Assembly (NCBI RefSeq): GCF_009759685.1
Contig: NZ_CP046654.1
Location: 3,348,001 to 3,412,000, forward strand
Source of the DNA: Acinetobacter baumannii
GTDB lineage: Bacteria; Pseudomonadota; Gammaproteobacteria; Pseudomonadales; Moraxellaceae
Direction of reading: 5' to 3'
DNA: 64,000 bases
The notes below the pieces were generated by a model. The model ran no database searches, was not told the DNA's origin, and worked only from the letters and a program-made list of their open reading frames with translations. Below, one piece after another: positions 27,353-36,884 of this stretch; position 1 is the first letter of the stretch; the number at the start of each line of letters is the position of its first letter. The position numbers and the translations under genes were made by a program.

Positions 27353-27961
27353 ATGAAACTACTTCAAATTGACACAAGTATTTTAGGTGAGCAGTCTGTT
27401 AGCCGCCAACTCACCTCATCTGTTATTCGTCAGCTCAGCACAGCTTATCCAGATGCAGAAATTATTCATCACGATTTTGCTTTAGAGCCAATTCCTCATT
27501 TGTCTGATGCTGAGTTTTTAGCATGGCAAGGTGTTGAACCTAATAATGAAATAGCGCAACAACGTGTTGCAAGAAACACCCAATATTTGGATGAGTTCTT
27601 ATCGTCAGATATCATTGTAATTGGCGCACCTATGTATAACTTTAGCTTCCCATCACAGTTAAAAGCGTGGCTTGACCGTCTATCTGTTGCTGGTAAAACA
27701 TTCCGTTACACGGAAAACGGTCCTCAAGGTTTAGTAGAAGGGAAACGTGTCATTATTGCTTCTTCGCGTGGTGGTGTGTATTCAGAAGGTTCACCAGCCG
27801 AAGCTTTAGACTATCAAGAAACTTATATCAAAGCGTTTTTCAATTTTATTGGGGTGACTGATATCACTTTTGTGCGCGCCGAAGGAATCGCTTTCGGACC
27901 AGAGGCACGTCAAGCTGCCTTAGATAATGCAGCAGCGCAAATTGCCCAGTTAGCGGGTTAA
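27353..27961 (+). CDS. azoR: FMN-dependent NADH-azoreductase
   Basis: A 202-residue flavodoxin-fold quinone and azo-compound reductase of the AzoR family. It shows the FMN phosphate region (IDTSILGEQSVSRQLT), the cofactor motif GAPMYNFSFPSQLKAWLDR and ASSRGGVYSEGSPAE. It reduces quinones by two electrons and cleaves azo bonds, protecting from electrophile stress. It is divergent from, and probably repressed by, the HxlR gene. Confidence 0.92.
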   Translation: MKLLQIDTSILGEQSVSRQLTSSVIRQLSTAYPDAEIIHHDFALEPIPHLSDAEFLAWQGVEPNNEIAQQRVARNTQYLDEFLSSDIIVIGAPMYNFSFPSQLKAWLDRLSVAGKTFRYTENGPQGLVEGKRVIIASSRGGVYSEGSPAEALDYQETYIKAFFNFIGVTDITFVRAEGIAFGPEARQAALDNAAAQIAQLAG

Positions 27962-29635: not shown

Positions 29636-30379
29636 GTGAGCCAGCTACCCCAAGATCCCAAAAATCACAAGCCTCTTTACGATCAGTTAAGGGAACTCAT
29701 CCTTAACAAAATTGTAAATGGTGAATATGCCGTGTTGAGTCAAATTCCATCTGAAAACGAGTTTGCTGAACAGTTCGGTGTAAGCCGAATCACAGTTCGC
29801 CAAGCACTTAACCAATTACAGTTGGAAGGCTATATTTTTAAGGTGCCAGGTAAAGGGACCTTTGTAAGTAAGCCAAAAACGTTCCAGAACATCTCAAGTT
29901 TGCAAGGTTTTGCAGAAGCAATGTCATCTGCTGGTCACGAAATTTTAAACCGTGTCATATCGGCCGAGCTTAAGCAGATCCCGATGCACGTTGTGCCCAA
30001 ATTAAAGTTACCTGTTAAAGCCAATGTGTATGAAATTCAACGTGTCCGTTTACTCAACCGTCAGCCAGTGTCGTATGAGTTGACTTATTTGCCTGAACAT
30101 ATTGGTTTGAAACTTAAAGAGAAAGCGATTGATTTACGTACAACCGATATTTTCAAGGCATTAGAGCAAGAGTGCGATATTCCTTTAGGACATGCGGATT
30201 TAAGTATTGATGCCACGGTAGCGGATGAAGAATTAGCGGCTTTGTTACAAGTCGAAATCGGAACTCCGGTATTACGGGTCGAACGTTTGACTCATGACGC
30301 AAATGGCCAACCGATTGACTATGAATATCTCTATTTCTCGGGCGATACCTTCCAGTACCGTTTACGTATTCATCGTTAA
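29636..30379 (+). CDS. GntR/HutC-family regulator with UTRA domain
   Basis: A 247-residue repressor-type regulator. An N-terminal GntR winged helix (PLYDQLRELILNKIVNGEY, FAEQFGVSRITVRQALNQL, PGKGTFVSKP) is followed by a UTRA ligand-binding domain (about 85-245). The GTG start has AGG nine bases ahead. It begins 28 bases before the flavoprotein gene, at the head of the AprBA-like/ABC cluster, so it likely controls it in response to the imported substrate or a product. Ligand unknown. Confidence 0.87.
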   Translation: MSQLPQDPKNHKPLYDQLRELILNKIVNGEYAVLSQIPSENEFAEQFGVSRITVRQALNQLQLEGYIFKVPGKGTFVSKPKTFQNISSLQGFAEAMSSAGHEILNRVISAELKQIPMHVVPKLKLPVKANVYEIQRVRLLNRQPVSYELTYLPEHIGLKLKEKAIDLRTTDIFKALEQECDIPLGHADLSIDATVADEELAALLQVEIGTPVLRVERLTHDANGQPIDYEYLYFSGDTFQYRLRIHR

Positions 30380-30407
30380 TAACTCAAATAAAAATAGGGA
30401 ATATTCA

Positions 30408-32141
30408 ATGGAAACTAAATATCTTGAGTTTGATATTGTGGTGATTGGTGGTGGAACTGCTGGGCCAATGGCTGCGATTAAAGCCAAACAAGAAAACCCG
30501 AATTTAAAAGTCTTGCTCATTGAAAAAGCGAATGTAAAACGTAGTGGGGCGATTTCAATGGGAATGGATGGACTGAATAATGCTGTCATTCCGGGCTACG
30601 CAACACCTGAGCAGTACACCAAAGAAATTACGATTGCCAATGATGGGGTAGTTAACCAAACCACTGTATATGCATATGCGAAGCATAGTTTCAAAACCAT
30701 TCAACAGCTCGATCAATGGGGTATTAAGTTTGAAAAAGATGAGACAGGCGAATTTGCAGTAAAAAAAGTACATCACATGGGTGCATATGTTTTACCAATG
30801 CCCGAAGGTCATGATGTTAAAAAAGTTTTATATCGTCAGTTAAAGCGTGCTCAAGTCAAAATTAATAATCGCATTGTCACTACAAAGCTTTTAAAAAATG
30901 AACAAGGTGCAATCAATGGTGTACTCGGTTTTGATTGTCGTAGTGGTGACTTTTATGTCATTAAAACGAAAGCTGCCATTTTATGTTGTGGTGCCGCAGG
31001 GCGTTTAGGTTTGCCAGCTTCCGGCTATTTAATGGGCACTTATGAAAACCCAACCAATGCAGGTGACGGCTATGCAATGGCATACCATGCAGGTGCTGAG
31101 CTTGCTAACTTAGAATGCTTCCAGATTAATCCATTGATTAAAGACTATAACGGTCCGGCTTGTGCCTATGTGACTGGTCCTTTAGGAGGTTATACCGCTA
31201 ACAGTAAAGGTGAACGTTTCATTGAATGTGACTACTGGAGTGGTCAAATGATGTGGGAGTTTTACCAAGAACTGGAAAGTGGTAATGGTCCTGTTTATTT
31301 AAAAGTAGATCATCTGGCCGAAGAAACCATTCAAACCATCGAAGAAATCTTGCATACCAATGAGCGCCCAAGCCGTGGACGTTTTCATGAGGGCCGAGGA
31401 ACCAATTACCGTCAAGATATGGTGGAAATGCATATTTCAGAAATTGGTTTCTGTAGCGGGCACAGCGCTTCTGGCGTATGGGTCAATGAAAAAGCTGAGA
31501 CTTCAGTTAAAGGATTATACAGTGCTGGCGATATGGCGGCTGTACCTCATAACTATATGCTTGGTGCATTTACCTACGGATGGTTTGCGGGTGTAAATGC
31601 CGCGCAATATGTGAATGCAATTGAAGATAGCGAATTAAACCAAAGTGAAATAGAAGCAGAAAAAGCTCGAATATTTGCGCCACTGGATTGCTCAGAAGGT
31701 TTACCTCCAGAACAAGTGGAATATAAGCTGCGCCGTTTTGTAAATGACTATTTGCAACCGCCTAAAACTCGCCAAAAAATGGAAATTGGGCTCAAGCGTT
31801 TTGAAGAAATTAAACAGGATATTAAGCGAATTTCTGCAAGAAACCCACATGAGCTGATGCGTGCCACTGAAGTTTCTTTTATTCGAGACTGTGCTGAAAT
31901 GGCAGCAAGAGCTTCACTGTTTAGAGAAGAAAGCCGCTGGGGACTGTACCACTATAGAGCAGATTTCCCTCAAAAAAATAACTCGGATTGGTTCTGTCAC
32001 GCGCATTTGAAAAAAGATGAACACGGCAACATGGTCAGTTTCAAAAAGCCAATCGAGCCTTATGTGGTTCCGATTAATCAAGATGAAGCTGTGTCGTATG
32101 ACCGTTTACGCATTCAAAAAGATGTTGCTCTAGCAGACTAA
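30408..32141 (+). CDS. AprA-like FAD flavoprotein (fumarate reductase / APS reductase alpha family)
   Basis: A 577-residue flavoprotein. I start it at the ATG at 30408 (METKYLEFDIVVIGGG); the longer frame runs into the GntR gene. It has the FAD site IVVIGGGTAGPMAAIKA, RSGAISMGMDGLNNA, the second FAD segment in GLYSAGDMAAVPHNYM and the helical C-terminal domain of succinate dehydrogenase-type flavoproteins. The MGMDGLNNA region and pairing with an AprB-like ferredoxin 20 bases downstream favour the adenylylsulfate reductase alpha branch over fumarate reductase. No sat or dsr genes are present, so sulfate respiration is excluded. The substrate is unknown. Confidence 0.78.
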   Translation: METKYLEFDIVVIGGGTAGPMAAIKAKQENPNLKVLLIEKANVKRSGAISMGMDGLNNAVIPGYATPEQYTKEITIANDGVVNQTTVYAYAKHSFKTIQQLDQWGIKFEKDETGEFAVKKVHHMGAYVLPMPEGHDVKKVLYRQLKRAQVKINNRIVTTKLLKNEQGAINGVLGFDCRSGDFYVIKTKAAILCCGAAGRLGLPASGYLMGTYENPTNAGDGYAMAYHAGAELANLECFQINPLIKDYNGPACAYVTGPLGGYTANSKGERFIECDYWSGQMMWEFYQELESGNGPVYLKVDHLAEETIQTIEEILHTNERPSRGRFHEGRGTNYRQDMVEMHISEIGFCSGHSASGVWVNEKAETSVKGLYSAGDMAAVPHNYMLGAFTYGWFAGVNAAQYVNAIEDSELNQSEIEAEKARIFAPLDCSEGLPPEQVEYKLRRFVNDYLQPPKTRQKMEIGLKRFEEIKQDIKRISARNPHELMRATEVSFIRDCAEMAARASLFREESRWGLYHYRADFPQKNNSDWFCHAHLKKDEHGNMVSFKKPIEPYVVPINQDEAVSYDRLRIQKDVALAD

Positions 32142-32161
32142 ATAAATCTGGAATTCAAATC

Positions 32162-32407
32162 ATGGCTTTTATTTTTAAAGAAGTACAGCACCGTACTGTC
32201 GCACCCGTCATTATCGATGAAGATAAATGTATTGCTGATAAAGGATGCACTGTCTGTGTAGATGTTTGTCCAATGGACTTATTGGCAATCGATCCAACAA
32301 CTCAAAAAGCTTTCATGCAGTTTGATGAATGTTGGTACTGCATGCCTTGTGAAAAGGACTGCCCAACAGATGCAGTCAAAGTAAATATCCCATACCTACT
32401 CAAATAA
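32162..32407 (+). CDS. AprB-like 2[4Fe-4S] ferredoxin subunit
   Basis: An 81-residue ferredoxin carrying two cluster motifs: CIADKGCTVCVDVCPMD and CWYCMPCEKDCPTDA. The Cys pattern and the tryptophan/tyrosine next to the second motif are those of the adenylylsulfate reductase beta subunit, but the long AprB C-terminal tail that wraps the alpha subunit is absent. Presumed electron partner of the flavoprotein encoded 20 bases upstream. The ABC binding-protein gene follows 19 bases later in the same operon. Confidence 0.82.
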   Translation: MAFIFKEVQHRTVAPVIIDEDKCIADKGCTVCVDVCPMDLLAIDPTTQKAFMQFDECWYCMPCEKDCPTDAVKVNIPYLLK

Positions 32408-32426
32408 TTAATTTGGAATACTCAAC

Positions 32427-33857
32427 ATGAGACAAAATAAATTGATCAATAAAAAACTATTACTCAGTAGCTTAATTGGTGCCATGGTACTTGGCACTTT
32501 GGGGTGCGGCAGTAAAACAGAAACTGTTCGTGTAGCGATTGGTACACAAGACACGACCATTAACTGTGCAACAGGTGGGCTGCTGATTCGTGAATTGAAT
32601 TTATTACCCAAATATTTGCCTAAAGATGGTAAATACAGACACGTTAAATATGACATTCAATGGAAAAACTTTACCTCTGGTGCACCACTTACCAGTGAAA
32701 TGGTGGCTGGACGTCTAGATTTGGGAGCAATGGCAGACTTTCCTGCTGTTAATAATTTAGCAGCATTTAAAAAAGCTGGAAAAGAAAGCATATTTTTAGC
32801 ACCGTTATCAGGCAGTATTAATGGTAGCGGTAATGCGATTGTTGTTCCAATTGATTCAAAAGTCACTTCACTTAAAGAGCTAAAGGGGCAGACTATTTCT
32901 GTAGCTTTTGCCTCAACTGCTCATGGACTTTTGCTACGAGCAATTCAAGCTGAAGGTTGGCAACTTGATAAAGATATTAAAGTGATAGCTCAGGCACCAG
33001 AAGTGGCGGGACCTGCATTAAAAAGTCATAAGATCGCTGCGCATGCTGACTTCGTACCATTTGGAGAGTTATTTGCTTACCAAGGTTTTGCCAAAAAAAT
33101 CTATGATGGTTCACAAGCAAAATCACCGACATTTCATGGTTCGCTTGCCAGCAAGGATTATGCACAGCAGCATCCCGAAGTCATAAAAGCTTATTTACAA
33201 GCAACTATTGAAGCGAATCGTCTGATTCAGGAACAACCAGAAAAATATAGTGAACTTATTGCTGAAAAAACAGGTATTCCTGCCGAAGTTGTTTATCTAT
33301 TTCATGGCCCTTTAGGTCTGCAAACTCGTGACTTAACGTGGAAACCTGAATATCGAAAAGCGACTCAAATTGCGATAGATACCTTAAAAGTTTTAGGCAA
33401 AAACGACGGTACGCTTGATGTAAATAAATTTATTGATGATCAATACATTAAGGATGCATTTCAGGCATCTGGACTTAATTACAGCCAGCAACTTGCTGAC
33501 TATGCAAAATCACCTTTGGTTGCCAATGATGCTTTAACGGGCCAACCCATCAAGACATTTGATCGGGTAACTCAAATTTGGGTAAAGGGTGAAGAAAAAG
33601 TTCGTAGCTATGAAACGCCTGAGCATGCTTTTTCTGATTTAAAGAAAATACAAGCCGATGGAAAAAAGGTGCGTGTGGTTTATAGCCAAGATCATCAGTC
33701 CGACATTAAGTTACTTGCCAATTTGGCATGGTATGCCACAGACAAAACAGGACAAATTCAGGCTTTTTTATTAAAAGATGATGCTGAAAAATGGGCTAAA
33801 CAACAGGGCGGAAAAGTATATGACTTTAAAGCTATTCAGCTTGTAACACAGAGCTGA
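32427..33857 (+). CDS. ABC transporter substrate-binding lipoprotein with NosL-like C-terminal extension
   Basis: A 476-residue binding protein of the NitT/TauT/SsuA type. The signal ends in MVLGTLGC, a poor lipobox but with a cysteine at the right place. About 35-350 is the type-2 periplasmic-binding domain (RVAIGTQDTTINCATGG; MVAGRLDLGAMADFP). SsuA/TauA proteins are near 320 residues; the extra about 120 here end with a segment (FLLKDDAEKWAKQQGGKVYDF) that resembles the C-terminal pattern of NosL copper-binding proteins. It is followed by permease and ATPase genes. Substrate unknown; the family handles sulfonates, nitrate and thiamine precursors. Confidence 0.8.
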   Translation: MRQNKLINKKLLLSSLIGAMVLGTLGCGSKTETVRVAIGTQDTTINCATGGLLIRELNLLPKYLPKDGKYRHVKYDIQWKNFTSGAPLTSEMVAGRLDLGAMADFPAVNNLAAFKKAGKESIFLAPLSGSINGSGNAIVVPIDSKVTSLKELKGQTISVAFASTAHGLLLRAIQAEGWQLDKDIKVIAQAPEVAGPALKSHKIAAHADFVPFGELFAYQGFAKKIYDGSQAKSPTFHGSLASKDYAQQHPEVIKAYLQATIEANRLIQEQPEKYSELIAEKTGIPAEVVYLFHGPLGLQTRDLTWKPEYRKATQIAIDTLKVLGKNDGTLDVNKFIDDQYIKDAFQASGLNYSQQLADYAKSPLVANDALTGQPIKTFDRVTQIWVKGEEKVRSYETPEHAFSDLKKIQADGKKVRVVYSQDHQSDIKLLANLAWYATDKTGQIQAFLLKDDAEKWAKQQGGKVYDFKAIQLVTQS

Positions 33858-33891
33858 TGTGTTGTCTTACCTAATGAGCAGGAGGTGACAA

Positions 33892-34746
33892 ATGAGTAGT
33901 TTAGCCCAGACAAAACCTAATAACCAAAGTACATTTTTGACTAAATTTTTTCAGCAGTTGAGATCATATCCGGCGCGTTTAAAAAGCTACGTGATTGCTT
34001 TTACATCCATAGCTTTTTGGATAGTCATTTGGCAAGGACTTGCTCAGTTTAAAGTAAATTTAGGCTTTGTGAACTTTGGCAATGTACCAACACCTTTAGA
34101 TGTCATTCATGCGCTATGGGCTTTTTTTCAACTCAGCGCTGCATTTGAACATGTTGAATCTAGTGTGTTTCGTGTAGTGATTGGTTTTGTGCTTGCGGCT
34201 CTAATTGGTGTAGGTATTGGTTTGTTGGCAGGACGTTACCAAAAACTGGCTGCCTTTCTAATGCCACCATTAGAAGTATTACGTCCAATACCAGCAGTTG
34301 CATGGATTCCTTTAGCAATTCTAATTTTTCCCTCATCAGAAGCTTCCATGATTTTTATTACGTTCATTGGGGCTTTATTTCCAATTTTATTAAACACGGT
34401 ACATGGGGTTGGTGCAGTTGACCCAAGGCTCGTTGCATCTGCAAAAAGTTTAGGTGCTTCTGATCTTGCCATTATTCATGAAGTCATTATTCCGGGGGCA
34501 TTACCGAATATTATTACTGGTTTATCCATTGGAATGGGTACTTGCTGGTTCTGTTTAGTGACTGCCGAAATGATTTCGGGGCAACATGGAATTGGTTACT
34601 TCACATGGGAATCTTTCACCTTGCAAAACTATAGCAATATCGTGGTTGGCATGGTGCTGATCGGAGCGTTAGGTATGTTTAGCAGTACATTGGTGCGTGT
34701 GATTGGAAACCGATTTACTCCATGGTATCAACTAAGGAAGTCTTAA
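33892..34746 (+). CDS. ABC transporter permease, SsuC/TauC type
   Basis: A 284-residue inner-membrane permease with about six helices after a short cytoplasmic head. It has the ATPase-contact EAA loop (VASAKSLGASDLAIIHEVIIPGALP) and the family signature VLRPIPAVAWIPLAILIF, seen in sulfonate, taurine and nitrate permeases. GGAGG precedes the ATG. It ends one base before the ATPase gene, so the transporter genes are translationally coupled. Confidence 0.9.
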   Translation: MSSLAQTKPNNQSTFLTKFFQQLRSYPARLKSYVIAFTSIAFWIVIWQGLAQFKVNLGFVNFGNVPTPLDVIHALWAFFQLSAAFEHVESSVFRVVIGFVLAALIGVGIGLLAGRYQKLAAFLMPPLEVLRPIPAVAWIPLAILIFPSSEASMIFITFIGALFPILLNTVHGVGAVDPRLVASAKSLGASDLAIIHEVIIPGALPNIITGLSIGMGTCWFCLVTAEMISGQHGIGYFTWESFTLQNYSNIVVGMVLIGALGMFSSTLVRVIGNRFTPWYQLRKS

Positions 34747-34747
34747 A

Positions 34748-35587
34748 ATGTCAATTACACAAGGCCATGTAAGTATTCAAAATCTATCTCTACATTTAGG
34801 GCAAACTAAAAATCGTTTTCAGGCATTAGATCGAGTTAACTTCGAAATACAACCGGGCGAGTTTATATGTCTACTTGGCCCGTCGGGTTGCGGTAAATCA
34901 ACATTATTAGGTGCATTGGCAGGGCACTTACCAATTAGTTCTGGGTCTTTAAAGGTCGATGATGAATCGATATTTGAACCGCATCCAGACAGAGGTTTGG
35001 TGTTCCAGCAACATACCTTATTTCCATGGAAAAGCGTGCTTGAAAATATTGCTTTTGGTTTGAAAATGAAGGGCATTGCTAAGCAAAAGCGTATTGAACA
35101 AGCTCAGAAAATGATTGATCTGGTCGGACTTAAAGGCTTTGAACATAAATTTCCAGCCGAACTTTCTGGTGGTATGCAGCAACGGGTTGAAATTGCGAGA
35201 GTACTGATTAATCAACCTCGCATTTTATTAATGGATGAGCCTTTTGGTGCCTTAGATGCTCAAACTCGTTTAAAAATGCAAATGCTATTACTCGAAATTT
35301 GGCAAGAAATCCAAACGTCGGTTTTATTTATTACCCACGATATTGATGAGGCACTTTTTTTAGCCGATCGAGTGTTGATTATGAGCCATCGCCCAGGACG
35401 AATTATTGAAGAAATTCCACTTAAGTTTGAATGTCCACGAGATGTTGAGCTTGTAACAAGTAGTGAATTTACAGCCATTAAAAAACATTGCATCCAGACT
35501 TTAAAAGAAGCCACTCAACAAGAAGAGTTAAGACGTTTAAATCCATTAGGGCTTGGAAAGAAATCACAAATTAAGGAATACGAATGA
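34748..35587 (+). CDS. ABC transporter ATP-binding protein, SsuB/TauB type
   Basis: A 279-residue ATPase: Walker A GPSGCGKSTLLGALAG, Q-loop VFQQHTLFPW, signature LSGGMQQRVEIARVL, Walker B ILLMDEPFGALD and the switch histidine in FITHDIDEAL. All catalytic residues are present. The C-terminal about 50 residues after HRPGRIIEEIP are charged. It overlaps the HEAT-repeat gene by four bases (ATGA). Confidence 0.92.
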   Translation: MSITQGHVSIQNLSLHLGQTKNRFQALDRVNFEIQPGEFICLLGPSGCGKSTLLGALAGHLPISSGSLKVDDESIFEPHPDRGLVFQQHTLFPWKSVLENIAFGLKMKGIAKQKRIEQAQKMIDLVGLKGFEHKFPAELSGGMQQRVEIARVLINQPRILLMDEPFGALDAQTRLKMQMLLLEIWQEIQTSVLFITHDIDEALFLADRVLIMSHRPGRIIEEIPLKFECPRDVELVTSSEFTAIKKHCIQTLKEATQQEELRRLNPLGLGKKSQIKEYE

Positions 35588-36582
35588 GTTTTTATTATCA
35601 AGCTTTAGATGACCTCGATGAATATAATCAGGAATTTCTCACACAGCTCAATCATGCAGATGAAAAGATACGCTTTGTCGCTTTAATGAATATTGGCGAT
35701 GAAGAAAGTCCGGATTTACTTCCTTGGTTGCATACAGCACTACAACACGACTCTTCAGCTTTAGTCCGTGAAGAAGCAGCAAAAAAACTAGAAAGTTGGG
35801 AAGATCCAACCAGTTTGCAGGTATTAGCTCAAGCCTTATTTGATGCTGATCTGAATGTGAGACAAGCTGCCAGCCAGAGTTTAAGTGAAGTCAAAAATGC
35901 TGCATCGGCCCAGATACTTGCACCGTATTTAAAGCATACGGATACTTTTGCTCTCAGTGCAATTTTACGTGCTTTAAAACCTTTACGACCACAGCAATTA
36001 TTTGAAGAGATATCTGCTTTAGTACATCATGAAGATGTTCTTGTGCGCCGTGAGGCAGTCAGTGCATTAAGTTGGTTACAACAAGACCAAGCGATTAAGA
36101 TATTGGCAAAAACTGCTGAAACAGATATAGATGATGAGGTTCGCCGTATTGCAACAGGTGGTTTGGCCTATAGTCAGAGCATATCAGCTGAGGTTATCCA
36201 AGCACTTCAACATTCATTAACTTCGGAAAGTTGGCAACTAAGAGTGGAAGCTGCACTCACGATTGGAAAATTACGTATTGTTCAGCTCGAAGCTCCTTTA
36301 ATTCATGCTGTATCAGACCTGTATTGGCAAGTACGAATTGCAGCAGTACGGAGCTTGGGACTACTTAAATCACATCTGGCAGTTGCTCATTTGACTGATA
36401 ACTTTAAGCATGAAATTAGTAACTTGCGTAAAGAAGTCGCTTTAGCACTCGGTGAAATTGGTACAGCAGAAGCTCAGAAGCTATTGGAACAACATCAAAA
36501 TGATCCAGATCCTGAAGTACGAAAAGCGATTCGTATTGGATTAAATCAAATTGGTGAGGTGAAGTATGCAAATCAGACCTGA
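35584..36582 (+). CDS. HEAT-repeat protein
   Basis: A 332-residue protein made almost entirely of HEAT repeats of about 30 residues (for example [77 protein letters not shown]), roughly nine copies. No signal peptide, so cytosolic. HEAT solenoids act as scaffolds or bind cofactors and partner proteins. It overlaps both neighbours (4 bases with the ATPase, 17 with the DUF971 gene), which ties it firmly to this operon. I infer an assembly or docking role for the flavoprotein-ferredoxin pair. Unproven. Confidence 0.8.
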
Positions 36583-36847
36583 TATCCGTGTCGACACTAT
36601 AAATAAGCAGGTTCACTTTATATGGACCGATGGCTCAAGCATATGTCTGAGTCATCAAAGTTTAAGGGAAATTTGCCCATGTGGCTTTTGCCGAGCGAAG
36701 CGGATTAAACAAATTAAAATAGAGCATCAAAATGTTGAAGTGACAGCTATGTTTGATCAAGGTTATGGTGCCCAAATTTGCTTTAGCGATGGGCATGATA
36801 AAGGGATTTTTCCGTGGGCTTTTTTAAAAGAATTTGCTAAGAGCTAA
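36566..36847 (+). CDS. DUF971 / GBBH-N-like zinc-binding small protein
   Basis: A 93-residue protein of the DUF971 family, equal to the N-terminal domain of gamma-butyrobetaine hydroxylase. It keeps the zinc ligands of that domain: three cysteines in [13 protein letters not shown] and a histidine in [12 protein letters not shown]. Such small proteins also occur beside iron-sulfur assembly factors. GAGG lies before its ATG inside the HEAT gene. Last gene of the operon; a strong bidirectional terminator follows at once. Possible role: metal or cluster handling for the AprBA-like pair (inference). Confidence 0.8.
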
Positions 36848-36884
36848 AAGATGCCTTCTGCTTGGGACAGAAGGCATCTTATTT
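36846..36884. terminator. Bidirectional terminator after the AprBA-like operon
   Basis: AAGATGCCTTCTG and CAGAAGGCATCTT make a perfect 13-bp stem with a 7-base loop, followed by a T-rich stretch, between converging operon and MFS gene. Confidence 0.9.

Follow-up and report, generated by a model that had tools for sequence, protein, structure and literature searches.

The 64,000-nucleotide stretch analysed here (the window; positions 3,348,001 to 3,412,000 of contig NZ_CP046654.1, assembly GCF_009759685.1, of Acinetobacter baumannii) carries an operon of eight intact same-strand open reading frames, each with one stop, at 29636-36847 (+), in which a flavoprotein and ferredoxin pair related to adenosine 5'-phosphosulfate (APS) reductases stands beside a sulfonate-type importer. 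The first gene, with a GTG start, encodes a GntR/UTRA regulator (29636..30379; PF00392 and PF07702; this and all following features of the operon lie on the plus strand). It is followed by the AprA-like flavin adenine dinucleotide (FAD) subunit of 577 aa (30408..32141, ATG at 30408; FAD_binding_2 and Succ_DH_flav_C), the AprB-like ferredoxin of 81 aa (32162..32407), whose eight cysteines correspond to two 4Fe-4S clusters, a substrate-binding protein of SsuA/TauA type (32427..33857), an ATP-binding cassette (ABC) permease (33892..34746; PF00528), an ABC ATPase of TauB/SsuB type (34748..35587; PF00005; 259.6 bits to NF008421, below its cut-off of 357), a HEAT-repeat protein (35584..36582; PF13646) and a DUF971 (GBBH-like_N) protein (36566..36847; PF06155; solved relative 3luu, E 2.1e-11). 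The intergenic gaps measure 28, 20, 19, 34, 1, -4 and -17 bases. A preliminary description of this DNA had proposed a tightly packed operon, and both the packing (gaps of at most 34 bases, with the last three genes overlapping) and the domain assignments (GntR-UTRA, flavoprotein, two 4Fe-4S clusters, transporter, HEAT and DUF971) are as it stated.

The flavoprotein is a member of family NF006131 (PRK08275), scoring 1142.8 bits against a curated cut-off of 587. The family bears the name 'fumarate reductase/succinate dehydrogenase', a label repeated in the examined annotated plasmid records that carry the gene, but the protein fits neither enzyme: it reaches 159.5 bits in the succinate dehydrogenase/fumarate reductase model TIGR01812 (cut-off 567.3) and lies far under the cut-offs of the FrdA and NadB models. 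The AprA model TIGR02061 gives 192.1 bits, below its cut-off of 641.75. The closest solved relative is the 3'-phosphoadenosine 5'-phosphosulfate (PAPS) reductase alpha chain of Methanothermococcus thermolithotrophicus (8a8o_A, E 6.7e-69), with APS reductases also near. In a tree of 17 sequences, the NF006131 family forms one group (support 0.994), to which an Ilyobacter protein of PAPS-reductase type is attached next (0.996). Thirteen family members from distant phyla are 58-65% identical to the cyanobacterial one and have many invariant residues in common, and a GH motif is conserved in 111 of the 111 members longer than 520 aa (two shorter pieces of one broken copy were left out). The arginine of APS reductases is lost: the codon aligned with A. 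fulgidus AprA Arg265 (31134..31136; A. fulgidus numbering, read off the alignment) encodes a leucine in the context QINPL-I-KD. We take Arg265 to be an active-site position with a catalytic role.

Two kinds of known enzyme bear on this pair. The M. thermolithotrophicus PAPS reductase, the solved protein most similar to the flavoprotein along its whole length, keeps the GH motif and, according to the available part of its description, likewise combines an FAD subunit with a two-cluster ferredoxin subunit; in contrast to the window's flavoprotein, it has the AprA-type arginine, as does the Ilyobacter protein. The neighbours of the Ilyobacter gene are cysC, cysD and a gene for a GTP-binding protein, whereas no cysC, cysD, ATP sulfurylase or APS kinase gene is among those of the operon. 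Dissimilatory AprBA has the same fold family and subunit pairing but differs in its smaller subunit, the window's AprB-like protein being short (81 aa) and scoring 38 bits in the aprB model TIGR02060, below the cut-off of 135.65.

Flavoprotein matches of at least 63% identity, full-length or split, were found in 6 of 58 genomes, five of them from the window's genus, its own genome included. Above the NF006131 cut-off, the family is patchily distributed within the genus (15 of 119 genomes) and occurs in 21 of 398 genomes of the phylum and in none of 14 control genomes. Two of the 15 copies in the genus are broken (L065 in genome G010, and G520:C8:89443-90459), and the system is either being lost in those two species or affected there by assembly errors. 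A second A. baumannii record has an identical gene order. In named genomes, at least 591 of at least 598 stretches with the pattern encode a relative of the flavoprotein, and plasmid records extend the range to rhizobia, Methylobacterium, Methylocystis, Acidithiobacillus, further cyanobacteria and two actinobacteria, Tsukamurella and Nonomuraea.

We compared gene order in 112 loci, comprising 25 from genomes, 7 plasmid records picked for variety and 80 named genome contigs, the latter being the best 80 of at least 591 relatives. One genome is counted twice among them (L064 and L137), and they do not include L074, a near-copy from A. baumannii; 70 of the loci are non-cyanobacterial and 42 cyanobacterial. 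Components were counted by tblastn because the gene caller overlooked some short genes, such as DUF971 in L066, and order was judged on the best same-strand matches within 9 kb, with inserted genes allowed. The window's order of eight components recurs in 33 of the 70 non-cyanobacterial loci (32 of 69 without the duplicate), which indicates that the gene set is more than a chance assembly. The lack of conservation that would have refuted the preliminary description is not seen, and the coupling of an AprBA-like pair to a sulfonate-type importer, which it had recognised, is conserved far outside the strain. Of the 112 loci, 108 have an AprB-like gene and 107 a HEAT gene. Cyanobacteria keep a core of flavoprotein, ferredoxin and HEAT protein, as does Tsukamurella, where HEAT is fused to the flavoprotein. 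One cyanobacterial plasmid, from Nostoc edaphicum, has genes for HAD hydrolases, a methyltransferase, a GNAT protein and a VOC protein between its flavoprotein and ferredoxin genes (L164, 11701-14882), and a methyltransferase-type gene family of equal length occurs in 10 loci.

The HEAT and DUF971 genes had been regarded as parts of the system from the outset, and their behaviour across lineages agrees with this. The Tsukamurella fusion forms one protein of about 893 residues, as the flavoprotein model NF010374 suggests, to whose C-terminal part (positions 611-894) the window's HEAT protein matches with 71.3 bits. DUF971 is found in 56 of the 70 non-cyanobacterial loci and in none of the 42 cyanobacterial ones; at its place, 36 of the 42 cyanobacterial loci carry a gene for an Mrp/ApbC-type Fe-S carrier, which is present in a single locus elsewhere (1/70; L066, with both Mrp-type gene and DUF971). 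Mrp probably replaces DUF971 in cyanobacteria, the exchange being confounded with phylogeny. The window's DUF971 protein has the arrangement C37-x-C39-xx-C42 with H77, residues that presumably bind zinc, as in related proteins.

The binding protein is of NMT1 type and falls within the wide NMT1/SsuA/nitrate group. The protein matches the solved structure 2x26 (E 3.8e-16), the top solved matches of its profile are binders of taurine and aliphatic sulfonates, and it scores 115.5 bits in TIGR01728, below the cut-off of 163.5. Its last 100 residues resemble NosL: the profile matches NosL 7og7 (E 5.1e-5), and PF05573 is detected in 20 of 22 aligned relatives at E<=1, with a best value of 2.6e-7. 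In the window the domain covers residues 382-471 (33570..33839; E 0.0018), the single protein scoring 19.1 bits, under the Pfam cut-off of 24. The operon is like Ssu and Tau in transporter type and unlike them in that SsuD/TauD are not among its eight genes and that its binding protein lies below the SsuA-family cut-off and adds a NosL-like domain.

A GntR-like gene accompanies 54 of the 70 non-cyanobacterial loci and none of the 42 cyanobacterial loci. In 18 of the latter, a LysR-type regulator is fused to a binding-protein-like domain, giving proteins of 632-686 residues whose genes and the flavoprotein gene lie on opposite strands (for example L069:6670-8670). Their N-terminal part matches the LysR of L069, a regulator with Pfam HTH_1 and LysR_substrate, over 275-285 residues in 16 of 18 proteins and over 61 residues in the other two, which are from Prochlorococcus. 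In each of the 18, the C-terminal part shares 27-35% identity with the binding protein of the window and stops short of the NosL-like end. The fusion looks as if the intact ligand reached the cytoplasm.

To assess the neighbourhood of the system, 20 loci were set against 40 control regions of 18 kb, to which each of the 20 genomes contributed one and 13 of these genomes a further 20; the query families for ferredoxin-NADP-reductase (FNR)-like proteins, FdxA, Crp, YeiH, TauE, Mrp and GltD were all picked for recurring in the loci. FNR-like genes occur at 9 of the 20 loci, FdxA at 4, YeiH-type transporter genes at 4 and Crp-type regulators at 10, and none of these is found in the 40 controls. 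Mrp and GltD-like genes are absent from both sides of this matched set (0/20 and 0/40). Across the larger collection, a GltD/NfnB-like oxidoreductase is found in 6 of the 70 non-cyanobacterial loci and TauE in 7 of the 42 cyanobacterial ones. Five loci (L117, L129, L143, L148 and L149) have a GltD/NfnB-like protein of 1173-1197 residues downstream of the system, of which that of L117 scores 584.5 bits to PRK06567, below the cut-off of 1072.

At least one sulfur marker lies near 35 of the 112 loci (13 of 42 cyanobacterial, 22 of 70 others), a count without matched controls that is not used as proof; the sulfur-gene neighbourhood was dropped as proof of function because the matched-control test was negative. 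SsuD-like genes are near 15 of the 112 loci (8 cyanobacterial, 7 other). In two Methylococcales loci (L120 and L121), the core lies 3' of same-strand ssu genes whose SsuD is 64-65% identical to that of E. coli, and the flavoprotein starts 6 bases past a 274-residue gene (by Pfam an amidohydrolase in L120) situated between ssu and core; in L123, 15 bases separate the core from the preceding ssuDCB-like genes. The preliminary description had noted that sulfonate monooxygenase genes are missing. This holds for the window, where no match was found, but not for the genome, which has an SsuD above its cut-off at C1:1369892. The same genome encodes a frame of 550 residues that matches NIR_SIR_ferr twice, in the manner of sulfite reductase hemoprotein.

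Within the window, a terminator-like hairpin of 13 pairs, 6 of them GC, follows the last gene (36848..36880, +), its class being no more frequent in the stretch than in shuffled sequence (4 seen, 5.7 expected); promoter-like sites likewise do not exceed shuffles (14 seen, 20.4 expected). Upstream lies a gene similar to FMN-dependent NADH-azoreductase (27353-27961; 120.7 bits to PRK13556, below the cut-off of 188), which adjoins an opposite-strand regulator gene and for which no operon link is shown.

We propose that the operon is a sulfur-acquisition module that imports a sulfo compound and releases sulfite from it by low-potential reduction, a reading to which we assign a probability of roughly 0.55. 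It draws on the PAPS and APS reductases as nearest solved relatives, the place of the family beside the Ilyobacter protein in the tree, the SsuA/TauA-like binding protein, the loci joined to ssu genes, the electron-supply, YeiH and TauE neighbours, the NIR_SIR_ferr frame and the LysR fusions. The binding protein, permease and ATPase would import the sulfo compound, for which an organosulfonate or a similar R-SO3 donor is the likeliest candidate. Inside the cell, a low-potential ferredoxin would feed the AprA-like flavoprotein by way of the AprB-like subunit and its two 4Fe-4S clusters, and N5 of the reduced flavin would attack S(VI), as has been proposed for APS and PAPS reductases; for PAPS reductase, the available text of PMC10322725 gives such an attack on sulfur. 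The products would be sulfite, destined for cysteine synthesis, and the desulfonated rest. The HEAT protein and DUF971 (or Mrp) may serve the assembly of the FAD/Fe-S enzyme, and GntR would switch the operon on, with Crp-type or LysR regulators taking this part in other lineages. A more specific version is put forward tentatively, as somewhat doubtful: in an AprBA-type enzyme the nucleotide-sulfate site would have given way to one for an organic sulfo compound, which the enzyme would desulfonate reductively with ferredoxin. The compound would come from the enzyme's own transporter, whose binding protein bears a NosL-like domain and has a counterpart within the regulator in many cyanobacteria.

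Several observations weigh against this proposal. The position of Arg265 is a leucine in all 111 family members longer than 520 aa, so the APS-reductase mechanism may not carry over, and, on general chemical grounds, simple C-S bonds would provide poor leaving groups when flavin N5 attacks. Homologues of E. coli SsuD, SsuE, TauD, CysP, CysU and CysW are not enriched at the matched loci (2/20 vs 2/40, p=0.59), and TauE is absent from them and from their controls (0/20 and 0/40). The query families, those for electron supply included, were picked for recurring, and their positive loci come from few genera, making the p-values too small. No expression or growth data were found for the operon.

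The closest described system is Asf (asfRABC), which serves the use of aryl sulfonates. In the available text of PMC4267179, it consists of a binding protein, an ABC transporter, a reductase/ferredoxin pair and a LysR regulator, and the reviews and soil study available in part (PMC4267179, PMC9694294, PMC10441942) describe asf as required beside ssu for aromatic sulfonates. For Cupriavidus metallidurans CH34, AsfA/AsfB are annotated as Rmet_4334/5 in the available part of PMC2864759. We located asfA by interpolating tauD locus tags and by a nearby NuoF tag, not by the P. putida S-313 sequence: the tauD copies of the megaplasmid at 10, 710, 1004, 1263, 1813 and 1993 kb fit the tags 4136, 4409, 4633, 5119, 5292 and 5823, as given in the accessible published text, at 0.87-0.96 tags/kb when the 10 kb copy is taken as wrapped past the record start. 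This places Rmet_4334/5 near 923 kb, and a flavoprotein-ferredoxin pair is found at 927.9-929.9 kb. The name AsfA does not appear among the 120 listed of the 5039 relatives of this flavoprotein. Like the operon, the CH34 locus pairs a flavoprotein of the fumarate-reductase superfamily with the gene of a small ferredoxin, and genes for an ABC transporter and a binding protein of sulfonate type are near. Unlike that of the operon, its flavoprotein falls in a separate clade (support 1.000) and scores 56 bits to NF006131 (cut-off 587); its matches in the window's genome are of superfamily kind only. NF006131-like genes are absent from the megaplasmid, where the best match reaches 27% over 268 residues, and the 14 kb around the pair (L159) give no match to HEAT, DUF971 or GntR (tblastn, E<=0.01). 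Asf is described, in the text available, with a LysR regulator, whereas the window's operon has GntR. Identity of the operon with Asf was rejected, the CH34 flavoprotein belonging to another family.

The alternative that survives best borrows from Asf its division of labour: the flavoprotein and ferredoxin would form an electron chain to a monooxygenase such as SsuD, and the imported compounds would be desulfonated oxygenolytically. The need for the Asf pair in addition to ssu (PMC4267179, in its available part), the SsuD elsewhere in the window's genome and the loci that join core and ssu genes speak for it. We nevertheless regard it as unlikely, given that the nearest solved relatives of the flavoprotein are substrate-converting reductases, that members from distant phyla are rich in invariant residues, that the C. 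metallidurans AsfA stands in its separate clade, and that SsuD-like genes accompany a minority of the loci. That the operon imports and reduces a nitrogen compound or an oxyanion without sulfur is improbable: the breadth of the NMT1/SsuA/nitrate group and the negative sulfur-neighbour test in the matched loci would accommodate such a substrate, but the binding-protein profile best matches taurine and aliphatic-sulfonate binders, and the ssu-joined loci and the YeiH and (in cyanobacteria) TauE neighbours also point to sulfur. An oxidative enzyme of succinate dehydrogenase or L-aspartate oxidase type that takes an imported organic acid as its substrate and passes electrons to ferredoxin would suit the superfamily common to SdhA, FrdA and NadB and the database names, but is more improbable still, since the arginines of the SdhA segments LAGRDVVAR and GANRLGG, whose roles we assume, have no aligned arginine in the window's flavoprotein, SdhB/C/D genes are absent from the operon, and several lineages have ferredoxin and FNR-like neighbours.

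The earlier interpretation of the operon is partly supported. No established pathway with the eight-gene order was found in searches of open-licence literature, outside which most subscription papers lie; nor is the operon described in the available text of PMC4070957, PMC3506598, PMC5748707, PMC10708946, PMC8792954 and PMC4053727. The operon represents a real, conserved module of the organosulfur-uptake kind with an APS-reductase-like enzyme, apparently undescribed in that literature. New are the NosL-like end of the binding protein, the LysR fusions, Mrp in place of DUF971 and the ferredoxin and FNR-like genes added in some loci; Asf as closest analogue, the NosL-like domain and the loss of the APS-reductase arginine go beyond the earlier account.

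The flavoprotein occurs in cyanobacteria (including two Prochlorococcus records), rhizobia, pseudomonads, Acinetobacter including patient isolates, and two actinobacteria, and with so wide a range of organisms, the compound from which it would release sulfur may be relevant to soil, water and host environments alike. Ferredoxin-driven desulfonation, if true, would contrast with the oxygen-dependent routes of Ssu, Tau and Asf, and the system gives access to another branch of APS-reductase-like chemistry, one that can be tested.

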